A DNA stretch of 64,000 nucleotides from an uncultured Prevotella sp. (lineage in GTDB: Bacteria; Bacteroidota; Bacteroidia; Bacteroidales; Bacteroidaceae), in assembly GCF_946404925.1 (NCBI RefSeq), contig NZ_CAMJFM010000003.1:102887-166886 (forward strand), in the 5' to 3' direction. Below are positions 3,136 to 49,509 of the stretch, piece by piece. Position 1 is the first letter of the stretch. Each line of letters opens with the position of its first letter. Position numbers and translations under genes: made by a program. A model generated the notes under the pieces. That model was not told where the DNA came from. It ran no database searches and saw only the letters and a list, made by a program, of their open reading frames with translations.

Positions 3136-3864
3136 ATGAAAAAGCTGTTTACATGTTTATTGGCTGTGCTTGGACTTACCACAGCCTGCGGACAGAAGAG
3201 TTATGAGGTAGATGAGTTTACCACCAAGAGCGGTAAGACCGTCAAGTTCTACGCCCTGATGCATGCTTGCATCCGCATCGAGTTCGATGGAAAGGAGATA
3301 CAGATTGACCCTGTGCAGAAGTTAGGCAATCGTACTGTAGATTATACTGCGATGCCCAAGGCCGACTATATCTTTGTGACCCACGAGCATGGCGACCATT
3401 ACGATGCCAACGCCATCAAGCAGCTTTCGGCTGAAAAGTCCCAGTTGGTGATGAACAAGCGTTGTGCTGATATGTTTGGAGCAGGCCGGGTGATGGTAAA
3501 TGGCGACAAACTGCAGCTGAAAGATGTTAGCGTTGAGGCCGTTCCTGCCTATAACATTACAGAGGGCCACACCCAGTTCCACCCCAAGGGGCGCGACAAT
3601 GGCTATATCCTTACCATCGATGGCCTCCGCATCTACATAGCTGGCGATACCGAGGATATCCCAGAGATGTCGCAGGTCAAGGATATCGACATCGCATTCC
3701 TGCCTTGCAACCAGCCTTATACGATGACTCCCGATCAGCTGGTTCGTGCAGCCAAGACAATCAAGCCCAAAGTGCTGTTCCCATACCACTACGGACAGAC
3801 TGACCTAAGCGGTGTAGCAGAGAAACTAAAGGGCATCGATGTAAGAATACGTCATTACGAATAA
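3136..3864 (+). CDS. MBL-fold metallohydrolase, predicted lipoprotein
   Basis: 242 residues. The N-terminus MKKLFTCLLAVLGLTTACGQ is a lipoprotein signal with lipobox TTAC, so it is probably anchored in the envelope. The body is a UlaG/beta-lactamase-like metallohydrolase: metal ligands THEHGDHYD near residue 82, an Asp at AGDTED near 173, and a C-terminal FPYHYGQTD that supplies the last histidine. Relatives hydrolyse phosphodiesters, lactones or are called Zn-dependent hydrolases of unknown substrate; the substrate here is unknown. It is monocistronic with its own promoter and converges on the 3875 gene with only 10 bp between, without a visible terminator. Confidence 0.88.
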   Translation: MKKLFTCLLAVLGLTTACGQKSYEVDEFTTKSGKTVKFYALMHACIRIEFDGKEIQIDPVQKLGNRTVDYTAMPKADYIFVTHEHGDHYDANAIKQLSAEKSQLVMNKRCADMFGAGRVMVNGDKLQLKDVSVEAVPAYNITEGHTQFHPKGRDNGYILTIDGLRIYIAGDTEDIPEMSQVKDIDIAFLPCNQPYTMTPDQLVRAAKTIKPKVLFPYHYGQTDLSGVAEKLKGIDVRIRHYE

Positions 3865-3874
3865 TGGCGTCGTT

Positions 3875-4891
3875 TTACACATATATTTCTACTTCTACCA
3901 TGTAGAATCCATCAGCACGAGTAGGGCGGTGGATGGCGAACATGGTGGAGGTCGATTTATCTTTAAAGCGCTCCTGTACTAAGAACGAGCCACCATCGGG
4001 TTGCTTTTTAACCACAATGCGCCTACCCTCGAAGTTGAAGGGAGTGCTTCTGCTTGTCCTGTCGTAGAAACTGTTGGCATCTTCCTTTGTGGCAAAGTAC
4101 AGACGGCCATTTGTTGATGTGTCGATACTCATCGAGAAGTAGAAGGCATGAGGCGCGCTTTTGCATATTTCGTGGCCAAGTTCTCTCTTTTCTCCTTTAT
4201 AAATGTCACGACCATAAACATATTCGTCGTAATCCATTTCTTCGTCCGATACCGAGTCGTGATAGATAAAATTCAGACCAGATTTTTCGGCTTTTGCTGA
4301 CTGAAAATAGTACTTGGTGAGATAGAGCAGATCGTTAAGAGCGAATCGCTGATAGAACGTGCGATACTTGATGTAGTCCTCAATTGTTTGTTTCTCACCC
4401 GAACCATCTGTCAGGATGAAATCATCTACAAACCAGTCGTTGCGTTCATAGCGCATACTCAGAACAACATTATATCGTTTGCCAAAGTTCTTGGCATTGA
4501 TTTTAACGGTGGCGGTTGTGTCAGACATATTGCTGATTTTGCCCACTTCGCAAGTAAAGTCGGTATCATCCTGCGAGTTGGTCCAATGGTCGTAATCCAG
4601 AAATATTTCTTCACACTCTTCTGCCAGATCAGACGCTGTCTTATACACTTCCTTATAACCTGTGGTGCAGTACGTTTCGTCGCGACTGACTTGTTTGCCA
4701 TGATAGATAGAATCTACGCGAGCTCGAAGATAAGCCTCAGTATGCTTATCTACTTTCACCTCGATAGTATCAGCTGCCAAAGAGTCAGTTGCCACCGAGT
4801 CGGCATCGCTGGCCGACTTATTTGTCTTGTTACCACATGCTGAGAGCACCAGTACCGATGCTACAACAGCCATAATCTTGATTGTTTTCAT
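3875..4891 (-). CDS. Hypothetical lipoprotein
   Basis: 338 residues starting MKTIKIMAVVASVLVLSACG, a lipoprotein signal with cleavage before Cys19, followed by a Ser/Asp/Ala-rich linker (residues 20-50). The rest is soluble, with many charged and aromatic residues and no catalytic motif I recognise. Its start codon overlaps the stop of the upstream 4891-5436 gene (TAATG), so they are one operon. Both encode exported proteins, suggesting a shared envelope role, but function is unknown. Confidence 0.8.
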   Translation of the reverse strand: MKTIKIMAVVASVLVLSACGNKTNKSASDADSVATDSLAADTIEVKVDKHTEAYLRARVDSIYHGKQVSRDETYCTTGYKEVYKTASDLAEECEEIFLDYDHWTNSQDDTDFTCEVGKISNMSDTTATVKINAKNFGKRYNVVLSMRYERNDWFVDDFILTDGSGEKQTIEDYIKYRTFYQRFALNDLLYLTKYYFQSAKAEKSGLNFIYHDSVSDEEMDYDEYVYGRDIYKGEKRELGHEICKSAPHAFYFSMSIDTSTNGRLYFATKEDANSFYDRTSRSTPFNFEGRRIVVKKQPDGGSFLVQERFKDKSTSTMFAIHRPTRADGFYMVEVEIYV

Positions 4892-5436
4892 TATTCTTCA
4901 GACATCATATCATCTATTGATTCCTCTTCATGAGAAACCACCTTCAACTTGTTTCCTTCCCACTTATAGGTGGCTCTTACAAAGGTAGTGTCGTCCATGC
5001 GATAAGCAATGCTGATAGTTTTGTTTTCAGCGTCAAACTCAGGGTCGGGCATCATCTCGAACTCCTCCTCTTGAATAAACTTGCGAGTTGTGGGATTCCA
5101 CACGTAGGCTGAATACACATCGCCTCCCTGTCCACCATAGCCCACATAACCCAGATATACCATCAGGTCAGGAATGCCGTCGAAGTTTATGTCGCGCTCG
5201 TCAATCCACTTGATATTGGGATTATCCGGATATTGGAGTGTAAAAATGCGCTGACTGAAATTAAGATAGGTCTTAACACCATCGACATAAGTGTCGACCG
5301 TGATGCTGTCAACTAACTCTTTATCATCCTCGTCGAAGTGGAAAGAGGTTTTGAAACTATAGGCGCTACGCCCCTGTGCCTGGATGCCTAACACGCTGAC
5401 TAACAGCACAATGGTTGACAAAAGAAGCTTTTTCAT
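4891..5436 (-). CDS. Exported hypothetical protein, XAC2610/FG-GAP-like
   Basis: 181 residues with a cleavable signal MKKLLLSTIVLLVSVLGIQAQG. The middle has a Ca-binding-like DINFDGIPDLMVYLG segment (around residue 90) followed by YVWNPTTRKF, a pattern seen in the XAC2610-related/FG-GAP-like periplasmic proteins of unknown function. A possible -7 box TATCTTTG is present on the minus strand at 5472-5479. First gene of the pair with 3875-4891. Confidence 0.75.
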   Translation of the reverse strand: MKKLLLSTIVLLVSVLGIQAQGRSAYSFKTSFHFDEDDKELVDSITVDTYVDGVKTYLNFSQRIFTLQYPDNPNIKWIDERDINFDGIPDLMVYLGYVGYGGQGGDVYSAYVWNPTTRKFIQEEEFEMMPDPEFDAENKTISIAYRMDDTTFVRATYKWEGNKLKVVSHEEESIDDMMSEE

Positions 5437-35901: not shown

Positions 35902-35957
35902 AATCCCCATTGGCACAACAACCAATGGGGATTATGGTAATTTTAAAAAGGCTTTTT
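35902..35957 (+). terminator. Terminator and direct repeat copy 1
   Basis: Stem AATCCCCATTGG (35902-35913) / CCAATGGGGATT (35922-35933) with an 8-nt loop, followed by ATGGTAATTT, AAAAAGGC and a T-run. Nearly the same ~50 bp recurs in the same orientation at 41686-41740, on the other side of the accessory genes. Confidence 0.85.
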
Positions 35958-35963
35958 TCTTAT

Positions 35964-36000
35964 GTGCGCAGGATTTCTGCGTACCTAAGTCGTATTTTTG
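35964..36000 (+). promoter_or_regulatory. Dyad CGCAG-N5-CTGCG plus -7 box, promoter of the WYL gene
   Basis: CGCAG (35967-35971) and CTGCG (35977-35981) are perfect inverted 5-mers within a longer imperfect 8-bp dyad; TATTTTTG (35993-36000) follows after 11 bp. The dyad occupies the -33 region. The same arrangement, with the same 11-bp spacing, recurs at 40861-40902. Likely the binding site of the WYL regulator itself. Confidence 0.7.
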
Positions 36001-36047
36001 CCCCCCGATACGAAATAAAACGAACCAATAAACGTTATTGAATTAAT

Positions 36048-36962
36048 ATGAAAGATCTGTTTAAAAAGTACATGTGGATACTCGAGAAGCTCTACAGCAC
36101 GGGTGGAATCACATTTAAAGATATGGCTGAGGCATGGAAGGAATCTTCAATCAACGCTCAGAAGACAACCCTTGCCAAGCGTACATTCGATGATTATCGA
36201 AGGGCTGTCGAAGAGACGTTTGGCGTCAATATTATCTGCGATGCCTCGCGTGGCTACCAATACCGTATCGAAAATACCCGTTCGCTGTCTAATGACCATA
36301 TCAAACAGTGGTTGCTCAGTTCGTTTGCTGTCAACAACATTCTTCAGGATTCACGCAGCCTCGCTGAACGAATTGTCTACGAAGATATTCCCTCTGGCAA
36401 CGACTATTTGCTTGACGTGGTGAAGGCTATGCAGAAAGACAAAATGATTCGCGTTACATACGATAATTTCTTCGAGCATGGCGAGCAGCATCTTCTGATT
36501 GCACCTTACTGTGTGAAGGTGTTCCGTCAGCGATGGTATGTGGTTGGTAAAGCGCGAGGGCAGAATACCATTTGGCGTTGGGCCTTAGATCGCTTCGTTA
36601 ATATGGAGATTACTGAGCAGAAGTTCCGCTTGCCCAAAGACTTCTTTGCCGACCTTTATTTTCGCGATGCATTTGGTGTGATAGTGGATGATGACGAATG
36701 TTCAGTGGAGACTATCCGCTTGAAAGCCTATAGTGCTAATCATCGTGATGACTACTTGCGTCATCTGCCTCTGCATTCTTCGCAGCATGAGATAGAAAGA
36801 CAGAAAGACTACACCATCTTTTCCATTCGTCTTCGCCCATCCTACGATTTCTGCCAGGAACTGCTCTCTTATGGCGAGGAGGTTGAGGTGCTTTCGCCTC
36901 AATATGTGCGAGATTACATGGCAGAGCGCATACGTAAGATGACTGTGATATACAAAGATTAA
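36048..36962 (+). CDS. WYL domain-containing transcriptional regulator
   Basis: 304 residues. An N-terminal DNA-binding part (GGITFKDMAEAWKESSINAQ... RTFDDYRRAVEETFGVNI, residues 15-65) precedes a WYL domain (MIRVTYDNFFEHGEQHLLIAPYCVKVFRQRWYVVGKARG, ~130-170; the W-Y-V pattern) and a C-terminal WCX-like region (YDFCQELLSYGEEVEVLSPQYVRDYM). WYL proteins sense a ligand, often nucleic acid, and in several cases repress phage-defence operons through palindromes in the promoter. Its own promoter carries such a dyad. First gene of the AT-rich accessory region. Confidence 0.9.
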   Translation: MKDLFKKYMWILEKLYSTGGITFKDMAEAWKESSINAQKTTLAKRTFDDYRRAVEETFGVNIICDASRGYQYRIENTRSLSNDHIKQWLLSSFAVNNILQDSRSLAERIVYEDIPSGNDYLLDVVKAMQKDKMIRVTYDNFFEHGEQHLLIAPYCVKVFRQRWYVVGKARGQNTIWRWALDRFVNMEITEQKFRLPKDFFADLYFRDAFGVIVDDDECSVETIRLKAYSANHRDDYLRHLPLHSSQHEIERQKDYTIFSIRLRPSYDFCQELLSYGEEVEVLSPQYVRDYMAERIRKMTVIYKD

Positions 36963-36978
36963 AATAATCGCTAGAAAA

Positions 36979-37010
36979 TTTGGAGATATGGTTATTATTA
37001 CGTATTTTTG
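36979..37010 (+). promoter_or_regulatory. Promoter of the MNT/HEPN pair
   Basis: TTTG (36979-36982), 20-bp spacer, TATTTTTG (37003-37010), 23 bp before the ATG. It lacks the CGCAG dyad, so this operon is probably outside the WYL control. Confidence 0.75.
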
Positions 37011-37033
37011 CAGCGTAATTAATGTGAAGAGAT

Positions 37034-37327
37034 ATGTTGGTACTTCAAGATTGCATCAATAAATTGGCTGACTTCAAGGCTGCGTTTAGCCAGAAGTATG
37101 GCATCACTAAACTTGGTATCTTTGGCTCTGTAGCCAGAAAAGAGAATACTGAGGGTAGCGATATTGATATAGTCGTAGAGGTTGAGAAGCCCTCGCTGCA
37201 ATTGATGTACGAATTGAAGGAAGCACTGAAGGCATTGTTTGCCTGCGAGGTGGATCTTGTTAGATTCAGAGATTCACTCCGTCCGCTGTTTAAGTCGAAC
37301 ATATTAAAAGATGTTATTTATGTCTGA
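37034..37327 (+). CDS. MntA-like nucleotidyltransferase (antitoxin)
   Basis: 97 residues with the minimal nucleotidyltransferase motif FGSVARKENTEGSDIDIVVE: GS-x9-10-S-D-x-D, all three acidic positions present or substituted conservatively, plus a later VDLVRF. MNT proteins of this kind act as antitoxins by adding AMP residues to a partner HEPN toxin. The HEPN gene overlaps its 3' end by 8 bp. The pair sits between the WYL regulator and the membrane/nuclease genes. Confidence 0.88.
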   Translation: MLVLQDCINKLADFKAAFSQKYGITKLGIFGSVARKENTEGSDIDIVVEVEKPSLQLMYELKEALKALFACEVDLVRFRDSLRPLFKSNILKDVIYV

Positions 37328-37691
37328 TAATCAACTAACAATCCACGACAGGCTCGAAGATATTCTGGAGTCAATTAACCTTATCCAAGAATGGAGCGAG
37401 GGTCGTAAGACTGTTCAAGATTTCATGAGTTCATCTACTGGCGTGATGGCTTTTAATGCCTGCGTCATGCGATTCCAGGTTATTGGCGAACATGTTGGCA
37501 AATTGCTCAAGAGCGAAGAAAAACCATTGGATGCTTACCCTCAAATCCCCTGGCAAGCCATCTATGGACTTCGAAATATTATCTCTCACGAATATGCCAA
37601 TATTGACGAGGACATCATTGTCTCTGTGATAAATGATGACCTTGCTCCACTCAAAGAAGCTGTCGAGGAGATGTTGAAGAAATTGGTTTGA
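37320..37691 (+). CDS. HepT-like HEPN domain protein (toxin)
   Basis: About 123 residues from ATG at 37320 (MSDNQLTIHDRLEDILESINLIQEW). All-helical DUF86/HEPN fold; the RNase motif R-x4-H with following Y is seen as LRNIISHEYANID near residue 88. HepT-type toxins cleave or deplete RNA and are inactivated by MntA AMPylation near this Tyr. The frame overlaps mntA (ATGTCTGA). Short, co-translated and complete. Confidence 0.88.
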   Translation: MSDNQLTIHDRLEDILESINLIQEWSEGRKTVQDFMSSSTGVMAFNACVMRFQVIGEHVGKLLKSEEKPLDAYPQIPWQAIYGLRNIISHEYANIDEDIIVSVINDDLAPLKEAVEEMLKKLV

Positions 37692-37723
37692 TTATTATAT
37701 TCATTTTCTACATTCTTAAAGAT

Positions 37724-38425
37724 ATGATACATACAGATTTACTAGATGATTATATAATTAATCAAAGGCAAATAAGGCTACAAAAAAAATCACATAGAGT
37801 AAATAGTTTTTTGAGCAATATAGCTAAAAGAATTAACCTTCGTTTGCAATCTCTTACGATATTATTGGCTTGTGTTTCACTTATTTCTTTTATGTCTTGT
37901 TCATCTGATGATACGGATGAAATTGATAAGCGTAAGGAGTTTACACAAATTGTGGAGAATCGATCGGCCAAGGATCTACTCAATGACTTGTATGTTGGTA
38001 GCGATGGAGATATTCAATCATTAGCTCGTATGTTAAATGTAACACCATCCTCAATTGAACGATTAAGAAAAGGAGAAACTGAACCAACAGATAAGTTTGA
38101 TAAAAGAATAAAAGAAGTCGCAATATACTACTATTTACATGACCGCTCATACAGACAATTGCGTGCTTGTTTGAAAGACGCAAGGTGGTATGAATATCTT
38201 ATATGGTTTGTAATAGATAATCCAGGTTGGTTTATTTTTGATTTTATATTGTCTTTATGTATTTCCTTGATTATAGCTGAAGAATTTCCTTTACCTGCTA
38301 TTTTATGGGGTATTATGTTCATAGTTTATATTGTTGCAGCAGTATTATATTTTTGTGTAACGCCAGCAAAAATGGATGACAAGTATATAGATACAATTAA
38401 CCCAACAATAGAGGTGCTGATTTGA
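37724..38425 (+). CDS. Unknown membrane protein with helix-turn-helix-like segment
   Basis: About 233 residues if it starts at the ATG at 37724; the track start at 37688 overlaps hepT by 4 bp and is also possible. The first 35 residues are basic and soluble, followed by a hydrophobic stretch with a Cys-Ser end (LTILLACVSLISFMSCSSDD), which may be a lipoprotein-type or membrane anchor. Next comes LARMLNVTPSSIERLRKGE, which has the pattern of a helix-turn-helix. The C-terminal part has two TM helices (GWFIFDFILSLCISLIIAE, ILWGIMFIVYIVAAVLYF). I do not recognise the family. Low GC content; precedes the lipoprotein and WHH-nuclease genes by close spacing. Confidence 0.6.
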   Translation: MIHTDLLDDYIINQRQIRLQKKSHRVNSFLSNIAKRINLRLQSLTILLACVSLISFMSCSSDDTDEIDKRKEFTQIVENRSAKDLLNDLYVGSDGDIQSLARMLNVTPSSIERLRKGETEPTDKFDKRIKEVAIYYYLHDRSYRQLRACLKDARWYEYLIWFVIDNPGWFIFDFILSLCISLIIAEEFPLPAILWGIMFIVYIVAAVLYFCVTPAKMDDKYIDTINPTIEVLI

Positions 38426-38429
38426 ATAT

Positions 38430-39248
38430 ATGTACAAATGGCTTTTCATATTGGTTCTATTATTCCTTTATTCGTGCTCAGATGAAGAGGACGATAAGTT
38501 GCGTGAATCAATAAAAGAAGAGATAGCCATTTCAGCAACAGATTCTATTTCAACTAATAAGATTATTACTATTGAGCAATATAAAGATGTAGAATTAGCA
38601 TTTAATAAAAAGTATATTAAGGATTTGCGAAGTCTCATAGAAGGCAGTTTTGAAAAACAACTTGATTCTTTTGATGATGAAGAACTTGGCTTTTGGGCTA
38701 GTTATGGATATATGATTGATTACCTTTTCAAATCTGACCAAGAATGGGAAGATGAGATGTTATTAAAGAGTCAGAAATATTTTAGCACTCTCGATATTGA
38801 ACAAGATGCAAATTCTTTATTTGAAAGTTATGTTAATGAGATAAATAGGTTAAGATCAAGGTTTGTCGAATCAAATAATTATAGGAAGGTGCCACAATTT
38901 CAAAGCTTTAATCTCCCTGATAGACAAATAAACATAATGGGCCTTAAAAAACATGCAGAGAGAAATTTGATTATTGAAATAGGAGAAGAATTTCTAAGGT
39001 GGTTCTTAGTTGTAACTGTAGTTGCTTTCATTTCATTTGTCATCGGCTTGGCAAAACCACCTGTATGGATTGCGACGGTAATTATGTTTATTCTCTCATG
39101 TATATTAACTTATCGAAACGATAATAAATTACTTGATTCTTTAAGGGCCCAAGAATCATCTATCATAATAGATTATAACTCCATAAATAAGACACTTGAC
39201 GCTAATACTTCTGCATTTTATGAAATATCCGACAAAAGCAATATATAA
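38430..39248 (+). CDS. Unknown lipoprotein with C-terminal membrane helices
   Basis: 272 residues. Lipoprotein signal MYKWLFILVLLFLYSCSDEEDD, then a helical acidic domain (residues 25-190), two TM helices (FLRWFLVVTVVAFISFVIGLA; VWIATVIMFILSCILTY) and a short hydrophilic tail. No known family. It starts 4 bp after the preceding gene, and the next ORF starts inside its last 30 bp, so all three are one translational unit. A role as transporter or immunity partner of the downstream nuclease is speculation. Confidence 0.65.
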   Translation: MYKWLFILVLLFLYSCSDEEDDKLRESIKEEIAISATDSISTNKIITIEQYKDVELAFNKKYIKDLRSLIEGSFEKQLDSFDDEELGFWASYGYMIDYLFKSDQEWEDEMLLKSQKYFSTLDIEQDANSLFESYVNEINRLRSRFVESNNYRKVPQFQSFNLPDRQINIMGLKKHAERNLIIEIGEEFLRWFLVVTVVAFISFVIGLAKPPVWIATVIMFILSCILTYRNDNKLLDSLRAQESSIIIDYNSINKTLDANTSAFYEISDKSNI

Positions 39249-40836
39249 TATACTCCTCTTAGGAGTCATCATGTCTTTTAGCTCATGCAAGAAGATAATT
39301 AGATCATTTGGTGATGAAGCCACAGATAAAATCTCAACGTCAATAGGCAAAAGTACATCTAAGGATCTTTCGGAAAAGGCTTTGCGGAAGATGAATTGGG
39401 ACGACATCATTGATTTCGTAAAAAATGAAAATGCTCCTTTAGCAGAGAGCCTTGAGAATTTAGATAAAAAGACAAAGAAATCAATTTTGCAGGCCATTCA
39501 AGATGATGCTCGTTTCTTTAATTCACTTCGAACTCCTCAGTATAATCTAATAAATGATTTCAAATTGTTTACAAGCGAAGTACCCAAATTGGCAAATGAT
39601 GTTAGTTTTTTGAAAATGTTTGCCAATTCTAAGTACGAAGCTAAGCGATTCGGGTCGGTTGATTTGTTTGATCATGTGGTTCTAAGTGAGCAAAATGGGT
39701 TTGTTAATTTCGTAAGAAAAGATAATAAACAAGTTGTAGCTAAGTATAGAGATGGTATTATAGAATTGACTGATGAACTGACGAGAGGCTCCAAAATATC
39801 TGAAAAATCATTGCTTGGATATCAACTATTACCAAATAGTACATACAAATTCAGAGGAAAAGAAGGACTTCTTTATTTATTCAATGTTGATAATTATGGA
39901 AGGGTGTCTAGCGTCAAGGCTAATAATATATCTGTGAATGACATTTCAACCAATATTATTAATCGTAAATTTGATATATACCTTGGAGAAGATTGGGAAG
40001 CGAGTTTAAAACAACTAAGACAGGCTTCTCATGGTGATGATATAGAATTAAATATCGTCTATAAATACGTAGATAATGGAACAACTCCCAAATATGCAAA
40101 GGTAGAGGCGAAAATTCGTGGGAAAAGTCAATTTAAGAAAACATATGAGAATATTGATCAGACAACTGGAAGACAATTCTCAGTAGCTAGCAACAGCGAG
40201 ATTCTTCGCCTAAACTCTGCGGCTTCTAATTTATCTATTGATCACCAAGCGAAATTGTTGGAGGAGATGAACGCTGATGAGGGGTTGGCAAAATTGATAC
40301 ATGAAGATCCCGTTTTTAATATACATAGATGGATGTCAACAAGGAATCATGTAGACGAATCTATGATAAAGTTAACGTCAAACGGACGTGTTCCGCCCAA
40401 TGCTAGAACTTATGCAGGAAACGTCTATTATTTCAATCCTCACCTTAATTATGGGCTGAAAGCTAGGGTCGAAAGGGGATATAATTTTGTTTCTCTAAAA
40501 AAAGAAATCGGTCTTTCATACGACGATTTGATAAAATTGGATAAGTTGTATCCTGAAGGCGTACCTTTTACAAAAGAAGGATATCCAGATTTTACTAAGG
40601 TTGCATTTAAAGATAAAAATGGTAACCCGATGAGAATAAACATAGGAAAGCTATCTGGTGACAGTAAGAAAGATATAGATCGCGCCGAAACTCTGTTCAG
40701 ACAGCAAGGCTATGAATGGCGTGATGGTTATACATGGCATCACGAAGAGAATTCAACGGTCTTATTGAGAGTTCCAACAATTATTCATCAATTGGTGGAT
40801 CATGCTGGTGGTATGAGCACTTCGAAATTGAAATAA
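39220..40836 (+). CDS. Lipoprotein with C-terminal WHH-type HNH/Endo VII nuclease domain (toxin-like)
   Basis: About 538 residues from ATG at 39220, whose lipobox-like end (LLLGVIMSFSSCKK) suggests export and lipid anchoring. Residues ~30-160 are helical; ~210-330 (YKFRGKEGLLYLFNVDNYGRV ... EDWEASLKQL ... KVEAKIRGK) resemble the strand pattern of DNA/RNA non-specific endonuclease toxins but lack a GH catalytic motif. The C-terminal ~90 residues have the WHH toxin pattern: YPEGVPFTKEGYPDF, then GYTWHHEENSTVLLRVP and IHQLVDHAGG. WHH domains are metal-dependent nucleases of polymorphic toxins. Overlaps the previous gene by 29 bp. No known immunity gene is recognised. Confidence 0.8.
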   Translation: MKYPTKAIYNILLLGVIMSFSSCKKIIRSFGDEATDKISTSIGKSTSKDLSEKALRKMNWDDIIDFVKNENAPLAESLENLDKKTKKSILQAIQDDARFFNSLRTPQYNLINDFKLFTSEVPKLANDVSFLKMFANSKYEAKRFGSVDLFDHVVLSEQNGFVNFVRKDNKQVVAKYRDGIIELTDELTRGSKISEKSLLGYQLLPNSTYKFRGKEGLLYLFNVDNYGRVSSVKANNISVNDISTNIINRKFDIYLGEDWEASLKQLRQASHGDDIELNIVYKYVDNGTTPKYAKVEAKIRGKSQFKKTYENIDQTTGRQFSVASNSEILRLNSAASNLSIDHQAKLLEEMNADEGLAKLIHEDPVFNIHRWMSTRNHVDESMIKLTSNGRVPPNARTYAGNVYYFNPHLNYGLKARVERGYNFVSLKKEIGLSYDDLIKLDKLYPEGVPFTKEGYPDFTKVAFKDKNGNPMRINIGKLSGDSKKDIDRAETLFRQQGYEWRDGYTWHHEENSTVLLRVPTIIHQLVDHAGGMSTSKLK

Positions 40837-40860
40837 TCATTCTTCAAGGCGATAATTTTT

Positions 40861-40902
40861 ATCCGCTGCGCAGGTTTTCTGCGTAGCGGATGCTTATTTT
40901 TG
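40861..40902 (+). promoter_or_regulatory. Dyad CGCAG-N5-CTGCG plus -7 box, second WYL-type promoter
   Basis: Arms ATCCGCTGCGCAG (40861-40873) and CTGCGTAGCGGAT (40879-40891), 12 of 13 pairs matching, contain CGCAG-N5-CTGCG; TATTTTTG (40895-40902) begins 11 bp after it, as in the WYL promoter. The dyad lies 24 bp after the WHH gene's stop and may double as its terminator. Confidence 0.7.
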
Positions 40903-40946
40903 CAGCGATAATTCAAATTTTGTAGAATTTTAAAAGTGAAAAAAGT

Positions 40947-41282
40947 ATGGAACAGTTACATTCGTATTTGTGGACGGAAAGTATTCCTCTTGTGGGGGTG
41001 TTGGCATTTGTAGCAATGATGGAGATTGGAATACTTACATTTATTGTTGCAAAAAGATTTTTGAAATTTTCGATTCCGCGTTGGCTTTATAATCCATTTT
41101 TATTAGTCTTGCCATTGGGCTTAATAATTTATATTGCTAAAACTCCAATCGGTTGCACATTGCTGTTTGGTACGACAGTAGTCCTCTTTGCATTGTTCGT
41201 GATGATAGTCTATTTTTATGGCTCGTCTAAGAAATTCAATGCTTGGTTTAATAACGAGCAACAAGAATCAAATGCATGTTAG
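40947..41282 (+). CDS. Small membrane protein of unknown function
   Basis: 111 residues with three to four hydrophobic helices (VGVLAFVAMMEIGILTFIV, WLYNPFLLVLPLGLIIYIA, GCTLLFGTTVVLFALFVMIVYFY) and a polar tail. No family recognised. It is first in a two-gene unit under the second CGCAG dyad promoter, so likely co-regulated with the WYL gene. Its end overlaps the next gene by 11 bp. Confidence 0.6.
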   Translation: MEQLHSYLWTESIPLVGVLAFVAMMEIGILTFIVAKRFLKFSIPRWLYNPFLLVLPLGLIIYIAKTPIGCTLLFGTTVVLFALFVMIVYFYGSSKKFNAWFNNEQQESNAC

Positions 41283-41673
41283 CCATGAGCCATTGGGGAG
41301 CTCTTCTGTGTGGTGGGATATTTCTGGAGAAAAACGGAGTATTCATGATCTGATGTGTAAAGAGGGACTCCTCAGACTTAACAAACAGGAGGTAGAAGAA
41401 ATGCTATTAGGTAACTATCTCTTTGTGTCAGTTAGTGGAACTGGCGGGATAAATGAACGTATAACGAATGCATTAGGTAAGATCCCCAAAATATTATTCT
41501 CTAAGATGCTCATTCTTATCGAGTACCCTAAGGAGTGCGAGGTGTATATCACAGAGATAGAAATATTGAGAAAATGGTTCTGGTTCACAAGAACCATATC
41601 AATAGGTTTGGCATATCAGAACAAATGGAATTGGGGAGAAAACATCAGATTAAGAATTCTGGCTAGGATATAA
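41272..41673 (+). CDS. Hypothetical protein
   Basis: About 133 residues from ATG at 41272 (MHVSHEPLGSSSVWWDISGEKRSIHDLM); the track start lies well inside the upstream gene. Predicted soluble alpha/beta protein with LLGNYLFVSVSGTGG near 50 and a C-terminal WFWFTRTISIGLAYQNKWNWGE. No known domain. Translationally coupled to the small membrane protein before it. Whether the pair is an effector or an immunity unit for the WHH protein is unknown. Confidence 0.6.
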   Translation: MHVSHEPLGSSSVWWDISGEKRSIHDLMCKEGLLRLNKQEVEEMLLGNYLFVSVSGTGGINERITNALGKIPKILFSKMLILIEYPKECEVYITEIEILRKWFWFTRTISIGLAYQNKWNWGENIRLRILARI

Positions 41674-41685
41674 ACGGGAAGGTAT

Positions 41686-41757
41686 TCCCCATTGGCGCAA
41701 CAACCAATGGGGATTATGGTAATTTAAAAAGGGCTTTTTGTCCAAAGTTACTGTGTT
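41686..41757 (+). repeat. Direct repeat copy 2 (terminator) plus GTCCAAAGT repeat
   Basis: Stem CCCCATTGG/CCAATGGGG (41687-41695 / 41704-41712) is followed by ATGGTAATTTAAAAAGGG and CTTTTTGTCCAAAGTTACTG. The first ~50 bp repeat 35905-35957 almost exactly; the last ~30 bp repeat the elements at 43261 (inverted) and 43430 (direct). It also terminates transcription from both sides. Confidence 0.82.
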
Positions 41758-43175
41758 TAATAGAGGTCGAGGAGGACTTTCTCGTAGATTTCGTATTCTG
41801 GAGATCTTAGGTAGCCCTCTTGTTGCCAGCGGGTGACCATCTTGTCGGCATTGGATGGCGTTACGTGTAGGATGTCGATCACATCTTGTTTGGTGAATAC
41901 CTCGGGGAGCATGGCATAGCGTCGCTTTGTCTTGAGCGTGTGGCGCACGTTTTTCTTGACTACTGAGAACTGGTCGTGCTCGTGCTCAAAGTAAACGTCC
42001 CAGAAACGACCGAAGTAATAACGCTGGCATGCAAACTGAATCTGCATGATGAGGCGGCAGAACCAACGGTCGGTCTTGTCGATGGTGATGGTGCCATGCT
42101 GTTGCCACTCATCCCAATGGCGCATCACCACAAATGGGATGCTGACATTCATGCCATAATAACCAACTCGCTTACACATCAGCTCGTCTGATTTGGAATT
42201 ATCTTCCTTGGCATCTTCCATGCGGTCGTTGGTCCAATCCCAACACTCTTCTTCGAGTTCCTTTACTGGCAACTCTCCGTGAGTCTTATCCAGACGCTCG
42301 GCCCACATGCGGAGTGTCTGATACTCCTCTGGCTCCTTGTAGTATTCCTTCGCTTCCTCGCGCTCCAGCATCTTGAAATTGGTTGAAGGCATGGGGATGG
42401 CTGCCAATCGTGTAGAGAGGCCATCGTTGATGTTGGCTCCGTTAACCTTGTGGCGAAGGGCGAATGGGGTGCCTGTGTATACGTAGTTCCAGTAAACATT
42501 GAATGTGTCGCAAACTGAGTCGACATTGCTATAGAACATACCATCCTCCTCGTTGTGGAATGATTTCATCTCGAGGAATCGCTTGTTGTTCCAATGCTCG
42601 CCTTGCTGCTTGATAGCATTGTCGAGCTCTGTATCGAACGAAAGCAGATGTAGGTGCATTGGCTCGCCATCAACAATGTCGATGGCATTTATCATGTCTT
42701 CGATAAATACCTTATTAGAGGTGCGTGCGGGATGGGTGCGAATAAGCGACTTTGGTTTTATAGGACCATCGCCCTTGCGACCATTATCGTCCCATCGCTT
42801 ATATCTACGTTTGTAGTTGTTCATGTCTTTACATCCTTGTTCTGAAACCTTAATGATAGGACCAGCCAAGAGATTGTAGAGCATGGTTACAAACGACTTG
42901 CCCGTACCAGGATCGCCAATGACGTAGATGCCATAGTTCATGCGACAGAGTTTGCCTCTTTGTCCGAAGTAACGATATGTACATCTGGTCATCAGTGTGC
43001 CCAGGAATGCGGCGCTCGAAAAGAGTGCGGCAGGGTAGGCGCCTACCTTAAGTCCGCGACAAACTTCGCGCATACAAGGATATGCATCCATCAACTTTTC
43101 AATCTCTTTGCCCGCATCTTCCATGATTAGTTCTATGCGCGAGCGCTTCATAGAATCTGTTATTCCGTCATTCAT
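41757..43175 (-). CDS. DUF3987-family ATPase (VapE/YfjI-like)
   Basis: About 472 residues from ATG at 43175 (MNDGITDSMKRS). The track start at 43232 lies upstream of the promoter's -7 box. Walker A GDPGTGKSFVTMLYN (about residue 88), Walker-B-like LHLLSFDTELDN (~175), and a C-terminal winged-helix-like segment FTKQDVIDILHVTPSNADKMVTRW. DUF3987 proteins occur on mobile elements, related to primase-helicase modules, function mostly unknown; solitary copies are frequent in Bacteroidales. The gene is bracketed by inverted copies of a GTCCAAAGT repeat. Confidence 0.82.
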   Translation of the reverse strand: MNDGITDSMKRSRIELIMEDAGKEIEKLMDAYPCMREVCRGLKVGAYPAALFSSAAFLGTLMTRCTYRYFGQRGKLCRMNYGIYVIGDPGTGKSFVTMLYNLLAGPIIKVSEQGCKDMNNYKRRYKRWDDNGRKGDGPIKPKSLIRTHPARTSNKVFIEDMINAIDIVDGEPMHLHLLSFDTELDNAIKQQGEHWNNKRFLEMKSFHNEEDGMFYSNVDSVCDTFNVYWNYVYTGTPFALRHKVNGANINDGLSTRLAAIPMPSTNFKMLEREEAKEYYKEPEEYQTLRMWAERLDKTHGELPVKELEEECWDWTNDRMEDAKEDNSKSDELMCKRVGYYGMNVSIPFVVMRHWDEWQQHGTITIDKTDRWFCRLIMQIQFACQRYYFGRFWDVYFEHEHDQFSVVKKNVRHTLKTKRRYAMLPEVFTKQDVIDILHVTPSNADKMVTRWQQEGYLRSPEYEIYEKVLLDLY

Positions 43176-43201
43176 CTTTTTCCTTAGTTTTGTTAGTGGT
43201 G

Positions 43202-43233
43202 CAAAGGTACTAATAATTTTCGACCTAGCCAAA
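43202..43233 (-). promoter_or_regulatory. Promoter of the DUF3987 gene
   Basis: Minus-strand TTTG (43230-43233), 20-bp spacer, TACCTTTG (43202-43209). Transcription would start near 43196, so the ATG at 43175 is the usable start. Confidence 0.75.
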
Positions 43234-43260
43234 CGTTTGTAAGATTAATCTTCGCGATAA

Positions 43261-43308
43261 CGCAGTGACGCAGTTACTTTGGACAAAAGGCGGTTTAAAA
43301 ATTACCAC
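43261..43308 (-). repeat. GTCCAAAGT repeat, inverted copy
   Basis: On the minus strand this reads GTGGTAATTTTTAAACCGCC then TTTTGTCCAAAGTAACTGCG and TCACTGCG. It matches the + strand copies at 41715-41757 and 43430-43478 with a few differences. With the copy at 41.7 kb it forms terminal inverted repeats around the DUF3987 gene. Confidence 0.78.
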
Positions 43309-43332
43309 TTTGGACTATAATTGGTTAATTTA

Positions 43333-43382
43333 ATTTTATATATTATATTATATATTATAATATATAATATAATATATAAAAT
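43333..43382. repeat. 50-bp perfect A+T palindrome
   Basis: Bases 43333-43382 contain only A and T and read the same on both strands with no central spacer; the symmetry centre is between 43357 and 43358. It could extrude as a cruciform. It sits between the two inverted GTCCAAAGT repeats. Confidence 0.9.
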
Positions 43383-43429
43383 ATATAGATAGTATTTTAT
43401 TACTTGTCTTGATCTCCCGCGTTGTATGG

Positions 43430-43478
43430 ATGGTAAATTTATTTTGGCTTTTTGTCCAAAGTAACTGTGTCACTGCGT
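43430..43478 (+). repeat. GTCCAAAGT repeat, third copy
   Basis: GATGGTAAATTTATTTTGGC followed by TTTTTGTCCAAAGTAACTGT and GTCACTGCG; same family as 41715-41757 and, inverted, 43261-43308. Confidence 0.78.
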
Positions 43479-43610
43479 GGAATGAACCGTAACTTCGTTG
43501 CCTTAAAAGTTACGTTTCGTTGCCCTTGAAGTTACGTTTCGATGATTATGGAGAGATTGAACCGTTCAATCTGGTAGATTCTGCCGTACAATCTCATAGA
43601 TTGCTTACTT

Positions 43611-46517: not shown

Positions 46518-47498
46518 ATGGAACAAGAGACTATAAAGAAAAGAGTTGTTGGAATTGACATCAGTCTGGATGCCACCACTTACGCCATTGTCGACGTGAA
46601 GGGTGAAGTGATAGCTATGGACAGTTTCCCAACAATGGACTACCCTGAAATCAACCAATTCATCTCAGCCTTAAGCGACCATCTGATCAAGTTGGTCGAA
46701 GAAAACGGTGGCTATGAAAGCATCAGATCGGTGGGCATAAGCGCCCCAAGTGCCAACTTTATGAACGGAAGCATCGTGAATGCGCCTAACCTGCCTTGGA
46801 AGGGCGTGATACCACTGAGTATACTGCTGAGAGACCGTACTGGATATGCCGTGGCAGTGGCAAATAATGCTGACGTGAGGGCGCTTGGCGAGCATGCATT
46901 TGGAATGGCCAAAGGTATGCGTGACTTTGTGGTGGTAACCATGGGTAACGGCATAGGCAGCTGCCTCTTCTCGAATGGCATGATACACAAAGGCAACGAA
47001 GGATTTGCTGGCGAGATAGGGCATACGTGCATCGTGAACAACGGTCGCCAATGTACCTGTGGAAACAAGGGATGTCTTGAGGCCTATGTGGCAGCAAGAG
47101 GCATCGTAGCCACAGCCAAAGAGCTGATGGAAGAAACAGATAAGCCATCGCTGATGCGAGGCGTTGAGAAACTGACACCGAAACTGATAACTGACTTCTG
47201 CAATCAGGGCGACGAGATGGCCATCGAGGTATATCGCAGAACGGGCGAGATGCTGGGTATGGGTCTTGCCAACTACGGATCGATGGTAGACCCTGAGGCG
47301 TTTATCTTTACAGGCGGTATTGCTAAGGCTGGCAAGTGGTTGTTTGATCCAGCCAAGAAGGTGTTCGACGAATACGTGTTCCACAATACCTGTGGCAAGA
47401 TTAAGTTCCTGGTATCCGAGGAAGATCGCGTGTTGAACGATGTGCTTGGCGCAAGCGTGCTGGCATGGGAAGTTAGAGAGTATTCATTGTTTAAATAA
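46518..47498 (+). CDS. ROK family protein 1, catalytic Asp replaced
   Basis: 326 residues. ROK (repressor/ORF/kinase) features: GEIGHTCIVNNGRQCTCGNKGCLEAY, which holds the zinc-binding CxCGxxGC motif and the GH. The N-terminal phosphate motif reads GIDISLDATTYAIVD instead of the usual DxGGT. The sugar-kinase catalytic position, normally ENDANAAALGE, reads ANNADVRALGE: the Asp of NDA is Asn here. It may therefore bind sugar without phosphorylating it. No N-terminal HTH, so not a classic ROK repressor. First of three tandem paralogs. Confidence 0.82.
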   Translation: MEQETIKKRVVGIDISLDATTYAIVDVKGEVIAMDSFPTMDYPEINQFISALSDHLIKLVEENGGYESIRSVGISAPSANFMNGSIVNAPNLPWKGVIPLSILLRDRTGYAVAVANNADVRALGEHAFGMAKGMRDFVVVTMGNGIGSCLFSNGMIHKGNEGFAGEIGHTCIVNNGRQCTCGNKGCLEAYVAARGIVATAKELMEETDKPSLMRGVEKLTPKLITDFCNQGDEMAIEVYRRTGEMLGMGLANYGSMVDPEAFIFTGGIAKAGKWLFDPAKKVFDEYVFHNTCGKIKFLVSEEDRVLNDVLGASVLAWEVREYSLFK

Positions 47499-47506
47499 GT
47501 GATATT

Positions 47507-48514
47507 ATGGCGACTAATGATAATTCAGTTGAGAGCGTAGACAAAATCAAAACCCGCGTTATAGGTATCGACATACGTGTGGATAGAACCACCTTTGCTG
47601 TGGTGGACATCAGAGGCGAGATTGTGGCGCAAGACTACTTTCTGACTTCTGATTATGCTGAGGTTAACGACTATATAGGTGCTCTGAGCGAGAAGGTGAT
47701 TGCGCTGGCAGAGGAGAATGGTGGCTATGACACCATCCGCTCGGTAGGCGTGAGTGCTCCATCGGCCAGTTCGGTTACTGGATGCATCGAGAATGCAGCC
47801 AACCTGCCTTGGAAGGGCGTCATCCCCCTGAGTGCTCTGCTGAGAGACCGTCTGGGATTGGCCGTAGCTGTGGCCAACGATGCACACATATCGGCACTCA
47901 GCGAGAAATCGTATGGTAGCGCCCATGGTATGAAAGACTTTGTGGTGGTATCGATAAGCCATGGCGGACTGGGTAGCTGTTTCTTCTCAAATGGTCAGCC
48001 ACACCTGGGCTATAATGGCTTTGCAGGCGAGGTGGGCCACACCTGTGTAGAGGTGGACGGACGCCAATGCGGATGCGGAAACAAGGGATGCCTTGAGGCT
48101 TACTGCTCGGAGAAGGGATTGACGAAAACGGCTGAGGAGATGATAGCTGCCAGCAAGGAGCCCACATTGTTGAGCAATCTGCAGGAGCTGACCATCAAGT
48201 CGATAGCCGACTGCTGTTATAAAGGTGACAAGGTGGCCATCGAGGTGTTCCGCCAAACGGGCGAGCGACTCGGACTCGGATTGGCCAACTATGCATCGGT
48301 CTTGAATCCAGAAGCCATTATCCTAACTGGCGACATGACGCAAGCTGGAAAATGGTTGCTTAAGCCTATGAGATCCTCATTCGAGGAGCATGTGTTCCAT
48401 AACATCAAGAACAAGACCCGTATCCTGGTGTCAATCCTGAAGGAGGGTGAGCGAGATGTGCTTGGAGCAAGCGCCCTGGCATGGGACGTAAAGGAATACT
48501 CACTATTTAAATAA
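47507..48514 (+). CDS. ROK family protein 2
   Basis: 335 residues, closely related to its neighbours. Starts with a short polar extension, then GIDIRVDRTTFAVVDIRGEIV. VANDAHISALSE keeps the NDA catalytic Asp; GEVGHTCVEVDGRQCGCGNKGCLEAY carries the ROK zinc motif. ATP-side glycine motif again lacks the common DxGGT form. Could be a glucokinase-like sugar kinase; substrate not evident. Starts 8 bp after gene 1 and is followed closely by gene 3; all three end (V/W)xEYSLFK. Confidence 0.82.
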   Translation: MATNDNSVESVDKIKTRVIGIDIRVDRTTFAVVDIRGEIVAQDYFLTSDYAEVNDYIGALSEKVIALAEENGGYDTIRSVGVSAPSASSVTGCIENAANLPWKGVIPLSALLRDRLGLAVAVANDAHISALSEKSYGSAHGMKDFVVVSISHGGLGSCFFSNGQPHLGYNGFAGEVGHTCVEVDGRQCGCGNKGCLEAYCSEKGLTKTAEEMIAASKEPTLLSNLQELTIKSIADCCYKGDKVAIEVFRQTGERLGLGLANYASVLNPEAIILTGDMTQAGKWLLKPMRSSFEEHVFHNIKNKTRILVSILKEGERDVLGASALAWDVKEYSLFK

Positions 48515-48528
48515 TATAACTAGACAAT

Positions 48529-49509
48529 ATGGAAGAATATCAGATTAAAACAAAAGTGGTAGGTGTTGACATCAGTAATGAGCGTACAACCTACGCCGTT
48601 GTGGACATCCGTGGAAACATTATTGCCGAGGAACATTTCTCAACCTACGATTATCCAGATGTGAACAACTTTGTGAAGGATCTTAGCGATAAGATTGTGA
48701 CACTGGTTGAGGCAAATGGAGGTTACGAGACCATCCGATCGATAGGTGTTAGCTCGCCAAGTGCAAGTTCGGTATCAGGCTGTATCGAGAATGCCGCCAA
48801 CCTGCCTTGGAAGGGTATAGTGCCACTGGCTGCTATGCTGAGAGACAGAATCGGACTCGCAGTAGGTCTTTCGAACGATGCACATATTTCGGCATTGGGT
48901 GAGTACACCTTCGGATGCGCACACGGTATGAAGAACTTCATCATCCTGAGCATGGGTGTGGGACTGGGTAGCTGCTTCTTCTCAGCAGGAGGCGACCACC
49001 AAGGTCACAACGGCTATGCAGGTGAGTTTGGTCATACCTGTGTGGTGAACCACGGACGTAAGTGCGGATGTGGACACGAGGGATGTTTGGAGGCTTATGC
49101 TGGTGCCGCTGGTATTGTGCATACGGCTGAAGAGCTGATGGCCGAGACGGGCAAGCCTACACTGATGAAGGATCTAGACAAGCTTACACCACGCACCATC
49201 AAGATGTGTTGTGATAAGGGCGACGAACTGGCTATCGAGACATTCCGCAGAACAGGAGAAATCCTGGGATTGGCCATAGCCAACTATGCATCGATAGTAG
49301 ACCCTGAGGCTATCATCCTTACAGGTGGTATATCGCATGCAGGCAAGTGGCTGCTCGAACCAACCTACGAGTCGTTCGAGCAACACGTGTTTGGCAACCT
49401 GCGTGGCAAGGTAAAGATTCTGGTTTCGAAGCTTAACGACCGCGAGCGCGATGTGCTTGGTGCCAGCGCCTTGGCGTGGAGCGTGCCAGAGTACTCTCTG
49501 TTTAAGTGA
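48529..49509 (+). CDS. ROK family protein 3
   Basis: 326 residues. GVDISNERTTYAVVDIRGNII, LSNDAHISALGEYTFG with the catalytic Asp, and GEFGHTCVVNHGRKCGCGHEGCLEAYAG with the zinc motif. Conserved with copies 1 and 2 over the full length, so the set arose by tandem duplication. The men operon begins 28 bp downstream, so transcription may continue into it. Functional assignment (sugar kinase or sugar-binding regulator) is uncertain. Confidence 0.82.
   Translation: MEEYQIKTKVVGVDISNERTTYAVVDIRGNIIAEEHFSTYDYPDVNNFVKDLSDKIVTLVEANGGYETIRSIGVSSPSASSVSGCIENAANLPWKGIVPLAAMLRDRIGLAVGLSNDAHISALGEYTFGCAHGMKNFIILSMGVGLGSCFFSAGGDHQGHNGYAGEFGHTCVVNHGRKCGCGHEGCLEAYAGAAGIVHTAEELMAETGKPTLMKDLDKLTPRTIKMCCDKGDELAIETFRRTGEILGLAIANYASIVDPEAIILTGGISHAGKWLLEPTYESFEQHVFGNLRGKVKILVSKLNDRERDVLGASALAWSVPEYSLFK

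Follow-up and report, generated by a model that had tools for sequence, protein, structure and literature searches.

A solitary gene for a DUF3987-like AAA+ helicase and a long nested palindrome upstream of it form a conserved pair in Prevotella. The palindrome lies within 400 bp upstream of all 17 short genes of this type (17/17) versus none of 50 long homologues. Our preferred reading, held tentatively and with a little less than even confidence, is that an initiator helicase and its origin form a minimal module at this locus, one that functions as SaPI Rep-ori does; its origin activity and its route of movement are what we infer. Gene and palindrome look like a built-in replication module that has spread among Prevotella chromosomes. 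The features of the locus in the window (the whole 64-kb stretch of DNA analysed) are:

about 43431–43478, plus strand: left arm (the outer arm in gene orientation), with a GTCCAAAGT copy at 43454–43462
43333–43382, no strand: central perfect 25+25-bp palindrome, A/T-only, 50 bp
43260–43307, minus strand: right arm (inner arm), adjoining the promoter, with a GTCCAAAGT copy at 43276–43284
43260–43478, no strand: nested palindrome, 219 bp, putative binding site/origin, between the gene's promoter and gpsA
43202–43233, minus strand: promoter of the gene, presumably Bacteroidales-type, with TTTG at 43230–43233 and TAGTACCTTTG with TACCTTTG at 43202–43209
41757–43175, minus strand: standalone DUF3987-like AAA+ helicase gene, 472 aa, ATG at 43173–43175
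41716–41756, plus strand: third arm copy, directly behind the stop codon, in direct orientation to the left arm

On the gene strand the order is left arm, spacer with the A/T palindrome, right arm, promoter, gene and third arm. The two arms of the palindrome (43260–43307 and 43431–43478) are a 48-bp inverted repeat, 81% complementary, with 123 bp between them. Folded as single-stranded DNA, the whole palindrome has a z of −11, and no shuffle reached equal stability; a scan of the 64-kb window with the detector used for palindromes of this plan gave this palindrome as its sole match. GTCCAAAGT occurs four times in the window (0.42 expected; four were reached in 1 of 100 shuffles). An additional look-alike inside the gene, GTTACTTCGGACAAAG, is protein-coding sequence and was for that reason put down to chance and rejected as an arm copy. 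The sequence-only reading had described four repeat copies, with an inverted pair bracketing the gene as terminal inverted repeats. All four are present near the positions it gave, including the partial copy at 35935; the inverted pair lies wholly upstream of the gene, as the arms of one nested palindrome, in 17/17 copies of the unit. The half-copy at 35935 is a true sequence match but belongs to a separate 54-bp duplication, which flanks a toxin/immunity island:

35904–35957, plus strand: 54-bp direct duplication, other copy, which accounts for the partial arm match at 35935
36048–36962: WYL regulator of the island
37034–37691: MNT/HEPN pair of the island
39196–40836: WHH/colicin-DNase-type protein of the island, with small downstream genes
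41686–41739, plus strand: 54-bp direct duplication, near copy, with terminator hairpin, overlapping the third arm

The two copies are 94% identical, each includes a terminator hairpin, and the 5.7-kb island that they flank (35904–41739) is missing from the related locus L059, where one different gene lies between the unit and a hydrolase gene. The island also contains a 48-bp direct repeat (75%) at 35954–36001 and 40856–40903. Elsewhere in the window, 46518–49509 holds three tandem paralogous genes, look-alikes of ROK-family sugar kinases/regulators.

With the ATG at 43175 the protein has 472 aa. It carries a Walker A motif (GDPGTGKS), a conserved, Walker-B-like SFDTEL, a TGTP motif and a C-terminal winged helix, but not the BT4734-like primase N-terminus that the longer relatives have. 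Over its full length it is homologous to the C-terminal part of ∼800 aa proteins of its own genome (41–49% identity), in which that N-terminus is present. The short form is no remnant of a broken long one, as Prevotella-type rumen genomes contain another 16 short copies (57–85% identity; isolates KHT3, Ga6B6 and D31d included). Short forms are monophyletic with a support of 100/100 in a tree with 15 of the 16 further copies; the gene copy of L093 is broken by a stop. The earlier label 'DUF3987 ATPase' holds as regards homology to the long DUF3987-type proteins and fails as regards Pfam membership. Against a curated cut-off of 27 bits, Pfam DUF3987 (PF13148) gave 10.8 bits (E = 0.27) for the window protein and 13.0–24.2 bits for four short relatives, all below it. 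We call the protein DUF3987-like since the alignment relates the short form to the longer proteins.

An AF2 model (pLDDT 76) has an AAA+ domain followed by the winged helix and is weak in the Walker-B region (residues 184–227 below pLDDT 50). Foldseek searches of the PDB returned MCM2-7 and ORC-MCM complexes as best matches, with SCCmec Cch (5dgk) lower down; TM-scores to the query were low (0.32–0.37), so that the matches assign the protein to no more than a broad fold group. A sequence search of solved structures with the protein alignment gave no match. By prediction only, from a model of moderate quality, the protein would be an MCM-like helicase-type AAA+ ATPase with a C-terminal winged helix. 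DUF3987 domains have been predicted to be replicative helicases of mobile elements (Kazlauskas et al., PMC5862659).

The tie between repeats and solitary gene that had been proposed is borne out by the palindrome upstream of 17/17 short-gene relatives. The outer inverted-repeat score is 11–37 upstream of short genes, and at most 10 for long homologues. In 15/17 copies the arms surround an A/T-only palindrome; L071 has lost it and that of L093 is interrupted. The right arm abuts the −33 box of the promoter in every copy. This promoter has the form established for Bacteroides promoters; its placement between palindrome and gene is the same in all short-gene relatives and would leave the palindrome outside the gene's transcript. 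Three arm types were distinguished, TTTGGACAAAA (with ATTGGACAAAA), TTACGACAAAA and ATACGACAGGA. The two arms change together: both sides have changed in 25 of 34 pairs, covariation scores 0.348 where shuffles give 0.145 and slid partners no more than 0.149, and the arms within an element form 433 Watson–Crick pairs versus 352 ± 13 after arms are swapped between elements. G-U pairs make up about 13 of 442 paired cells (∼3%). Since an RNA helix would tolerate more of them, the constraint appears to lie on the symmetry of the DNA, and the comparison points to selection on the palindrome at the DNA level rather than via RNA.

Residue 442, in the recognition helix of the winged helix, is S in all elements with GGACA arms and R in all with CGACA arms (16/16). 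That it tracks the arm type is suggestive only, the two states being separated by one split of the tree. The third arm behind the gene is found in two lineages only, that of the window, L059 and L060 and that of L071. A MITE or REP family was rejected as an account of the repeats: within its own genome the exact arm motif is confined to this locus, plus one weak match with two mismatches elsewhere, and its 29-bp extension is absent from all other genomes (0 of 150 searched). An invertible promoter was rejected as well, since an inversion would have almost no effect with a palindrome at the centre, and the promoter is not enclosed by the arms.

Palindrome and gene together make up a unit of ∼1.65 kb without a recombinase. 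Its 17 copies, one per genome, occupy at least eight unrelated loci: beside gpsA, secDF and cobalamin genes, between an ABC transporter and a beta-glucosidase, and beside look-alikes of aldose epimerase, ribonuclease G, an mra-cluster gene and lptG (neighbouring genes were named by eye from translated sequences). When loci are compared, the homologous DNA starts at the left arm's outer edge and ends with the stop codon, as between L064 2071–3725 and L066 5765–7400. The window's own genome has an orthologous unoccupied site (L258) for the ABC transporter/beta-glucosidase locus, which is occupied in L067. The flanks of L258 and L067 have diverged so far that the junction cannot be located to the exact base, and we therefore make no claim of a target-site duplication, none being definable there. 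The single gene has no transposase domain in Pfam, NCBIfam or PHROGs. The small mobile unit of the sequence-only reading is thus upheld on the scale of evolutionary time, by the occupied loci, the defined edges and the empty site, and not as an element with a transposase or recombinase and terminal inverted repeats. From these comparisons, palindrome and gene appear to behave as a mobile unit in the broad sense, on evolutionary time.

In the two lineages with a third arm behind the gene the unit has direct repeats around it, and in L068 a partial second copy stands behind the first. Tandem insertion and loss could account for both features, as could the integration of a circle. The L068 fragment (3534–4990) is a second C-terminal piece of the helicase gene, ∼1 kb behind the intact copy, and its DNA is 93% identical to L066 versus 84% to the neighbouring intact copy. 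Searches of viral contigs, phages and plasmids turned up no relatives, and the viral scan gave no candidate confirmed by tblastn; no free replicating form is thus known, and a phage or plasmid origin of the unit was rejected on the same searches.

The palindrome belongs to a wider class. When searched with its covariance model, 41 of 150 genomes of the genus contained sites built on this plan (E up to 0.01), and the 148 genomes taken from other Bacteroidales contained none (E up to 0.001); the genome-wide counts rest on these searches, and the E-values of the model are rough. Within 1.36 Mb of fetched, partly hit-chosen sequence, 49 of 52 long A/T palindromes lie inside an outer inverted repeat. 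The arms of the class are iteron-like, made of tandem 7–9-bp units that differ at nearly every site (e.g. CGTGCCAT, GATGACA and CAGTGACT), and most of its palindromes have no adjoining helicase gene. The earlier expectation that the repeats would not occur broadly without the gene consequently holds only in part: palindromes of the same plan are widespread without it, and their arm sequences are mostly different. Close helicase relatives are commoner in genomes that have class palindromes: 22 genomes have both, 19 and 14 have one only and 95 have neither (Fisher p = 7e-7, inflated by shared ancestry).

Two further gene types are found near these palindromes. HU-HIG genes in 50 palindrome-centred regions all lie less than 1 kb from the palindrome (19/19, with 0 at 1–10 kb), and where one is within 600 bp it reads away from the palindrome in 16 of 17 cases; 13 of the 21 HU-HIG genes of the window's genome have a same-plan palindrome 170–400 bp upstream. 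Three HU-HIG loci of that genome (L239, L242 and L248) encode near-identical proteins behind wholly different iteron arms, the arm sequences evolving much faster than the protein. HU-HIG proteins are therefore unlikely to set arm specificity. Some long primase-helicase clusters have a related palindrome 1.5–3.5 kb upstream (7 of 55, with at most one downstream), and the arms of several of these palindromes contain TTTGGACAT or TCGGACAT, close to the window motif.

Some individual sites may be recorded here. L175 9650–9970 (genome G025) is an orphan palindrome with arms almost identical to the ones in L054, the helicase-linked palindrome of the same genome, and it is nested in another palindrome with tandem CTATCACA arms. 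In L155, a look-alike of IS200/REP-associated Y1 transposases lies a few hundred bp from an orphan palindrome. Arrays of a degenerate ∼20 bp unit (GTTACGTTTCGTTGCC, AGTATTCAATCTGG) are found just outside many palindromes (window 43480–43610; upstream of L062–L070 and L093) and are possibly another class of intergenic repeat.

The module would most likely work as follows. The winged helix would bind the arms, on whose inverted sequences two helicase rings would load head to head and melt the A/T centre, like SaPI Rep on its iterons; binding beside the −33 box would also autoregulate the gene. Because the unit is without a primase and without a recombinase, priming and integration would have to come from other elements or from the host, and the unit is probably a residual or parasitic replicon. 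Against the origin module count the low TM-scores and the weakly modelled Walker-B region, the loss of the A/T palindrome in L071, the broken gene of L093, the lack of matches among viral contigs, phages and plasmids, and the rarity of helicase neighbours in the class: most of its palindromes have none, so that the pairing is only one use of the class. A broader proposal, possible though we regard it as doubtful, is that Prevotella chromosomes carry dispersed origin-like palindromes with their own iteron-type arms as a family of minimal replicons or replication-control sites, partnered by HU-HIG proteins, primase-helicase clusters or a single MCM-like helicase. The diversification of arms would then resemble plasmid incompatibility, with many units per chromosome.

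The simpler rival is that the palindrome is an autoregulatory operator, through which the protein represses its own promoter and has no role in replication. The right arm against the −33 box in all relatives, the C-terminal winged helix and the co-variation of residue 442 with the arm would all fit such an operator, yet an operator needs no 50-bp perfect A/T palindrome, which is costly, unstable DNA, and the same architecture stands 170–400 bp from HU-HIG genes and in orphans without the helicase protein. We judge this reading unlikely. A structured RNA working with the protein would fit the strong predicted folding; the near absence of G-U pairs, the perfect A/T-only core, the lack of a conserved promoter reading into the palindrome and the lack of any Rfam match up to E = 1 make it extremely improbable.

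The other two rivals draw on the distribution and surroundings of the unit. The arms could be the ends of a transposon-like unit, recognized by an unknown or host recombinase or by the protein itself, as the insertion places, the sharp edges at left arm and stop codon, the empty site, the direct repeats created by the third arm and the partial second copy in L068 would suggest. Such a unit should have a transposase or recombinase and an inverted pair around the gene, but the former is missing, the latter is upstream, the 3′ end is bare in most members, no target-site duplication was found (given the divergence of the L258 and L067 flanks) and each genome has one copy; we consider it quite unlikely. 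An anti-phage or anti-element device, in which helicase and palindrome would sense or hijack the replication of an invader with the palindrome as decoy or trigger, is suggested by toxin/antitoxin- or defence-like neighbours (the window island, an MNT/HEPN-type pair behind L066 and a DUF262 protein behind L071). These neighbours vary by locus, with housekeeping genes only at several loci, and the PADLOC match is a weak one to AbiEi (E = 0.0037) over the winged helix, so that we hold a defence device to be very unlikely. Transposition by an unknown enzyme, a defence role and an RNA are all less likely than the initiator-helicase/origin module.

These Bacteroidales genomes hold many DUF3987-type and HU-HIG proteins, for which no role is known there. 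With a conserved, easily recognizable cis-site tied to both, these proteins acquire a definite substrate, and what they do can be put to the test. If true, few known replication modules would be as small as this helicase module of one gene and one site, and a dispersed class of about a dozen origin-like palindromes on each chromosome is something one would not expect of a major rumen and gut genus. Long perfect palindromes are normally unstable and are here retained for some purpose. The dispersed origin-like palindromes are possibly a new class, whereas the helicase-origin module itself is, pending experiment, of an already known kind. Nothing relevant to HU-HIG or the Prevotella palindromes was found in the open literature; papers beyond it could describe them.

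In SaPIs the repeats of the origin lie on either side of an A/T-rich stretch. The helicases of SaPIs and of SCC elements bind iteron origins that adjoin their genes, SaPI Rep doing so via its C-terminal domain (PMC7581432). The Prevotella unit resembles SaPI Rep-ori in its AAA+ helicase gene (self-loading in SaPI) with an adjoining short-repeat origin, both predicted on the Prevotella side. It differs in that its site lies upstream and is one long inverted repeat around a perfect A/T-only palindrome, in its different ATPase family, and in lacking integrase, primase and packaging genes and excision sites. As it has only chromosomal neighbours and none of the SaPI integration, excision or packaging genes, we do not file it as a SaPI-like island. 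SCCmec Cch/Cch2 is likewise comparable, with an MCM-like structure among the fold matches (5dgk) and a putative SCC origin adjoining the operon, but SCC has Ccr recombinases and a polymerase where the Prevotella unit is one gene. The long BT4734-primase-DUF3987 proteins of Bacteroidales, whose gene clusters also hold a lysozyme/peptidase-like gene, have a homologous ATPase domain (37–49% identity); they differ by their primase domain, their multi-gene clusters and a palindrome that is not directly at the gene. REP/RAYT systems and MITEs share palindromic intergenic DNA and a single-copy partner gene, whereas the Prevotella palindrome is far longer, nested, with an A/T core and without a Y1 transposase, and its arms differ at nearly every site instead of forming a repeated family. 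HU-HIG (PF18291) is a DNA-bending protein and not an ATPase, and shares with the helicase a palindrome of the same plan upstream of its gene.
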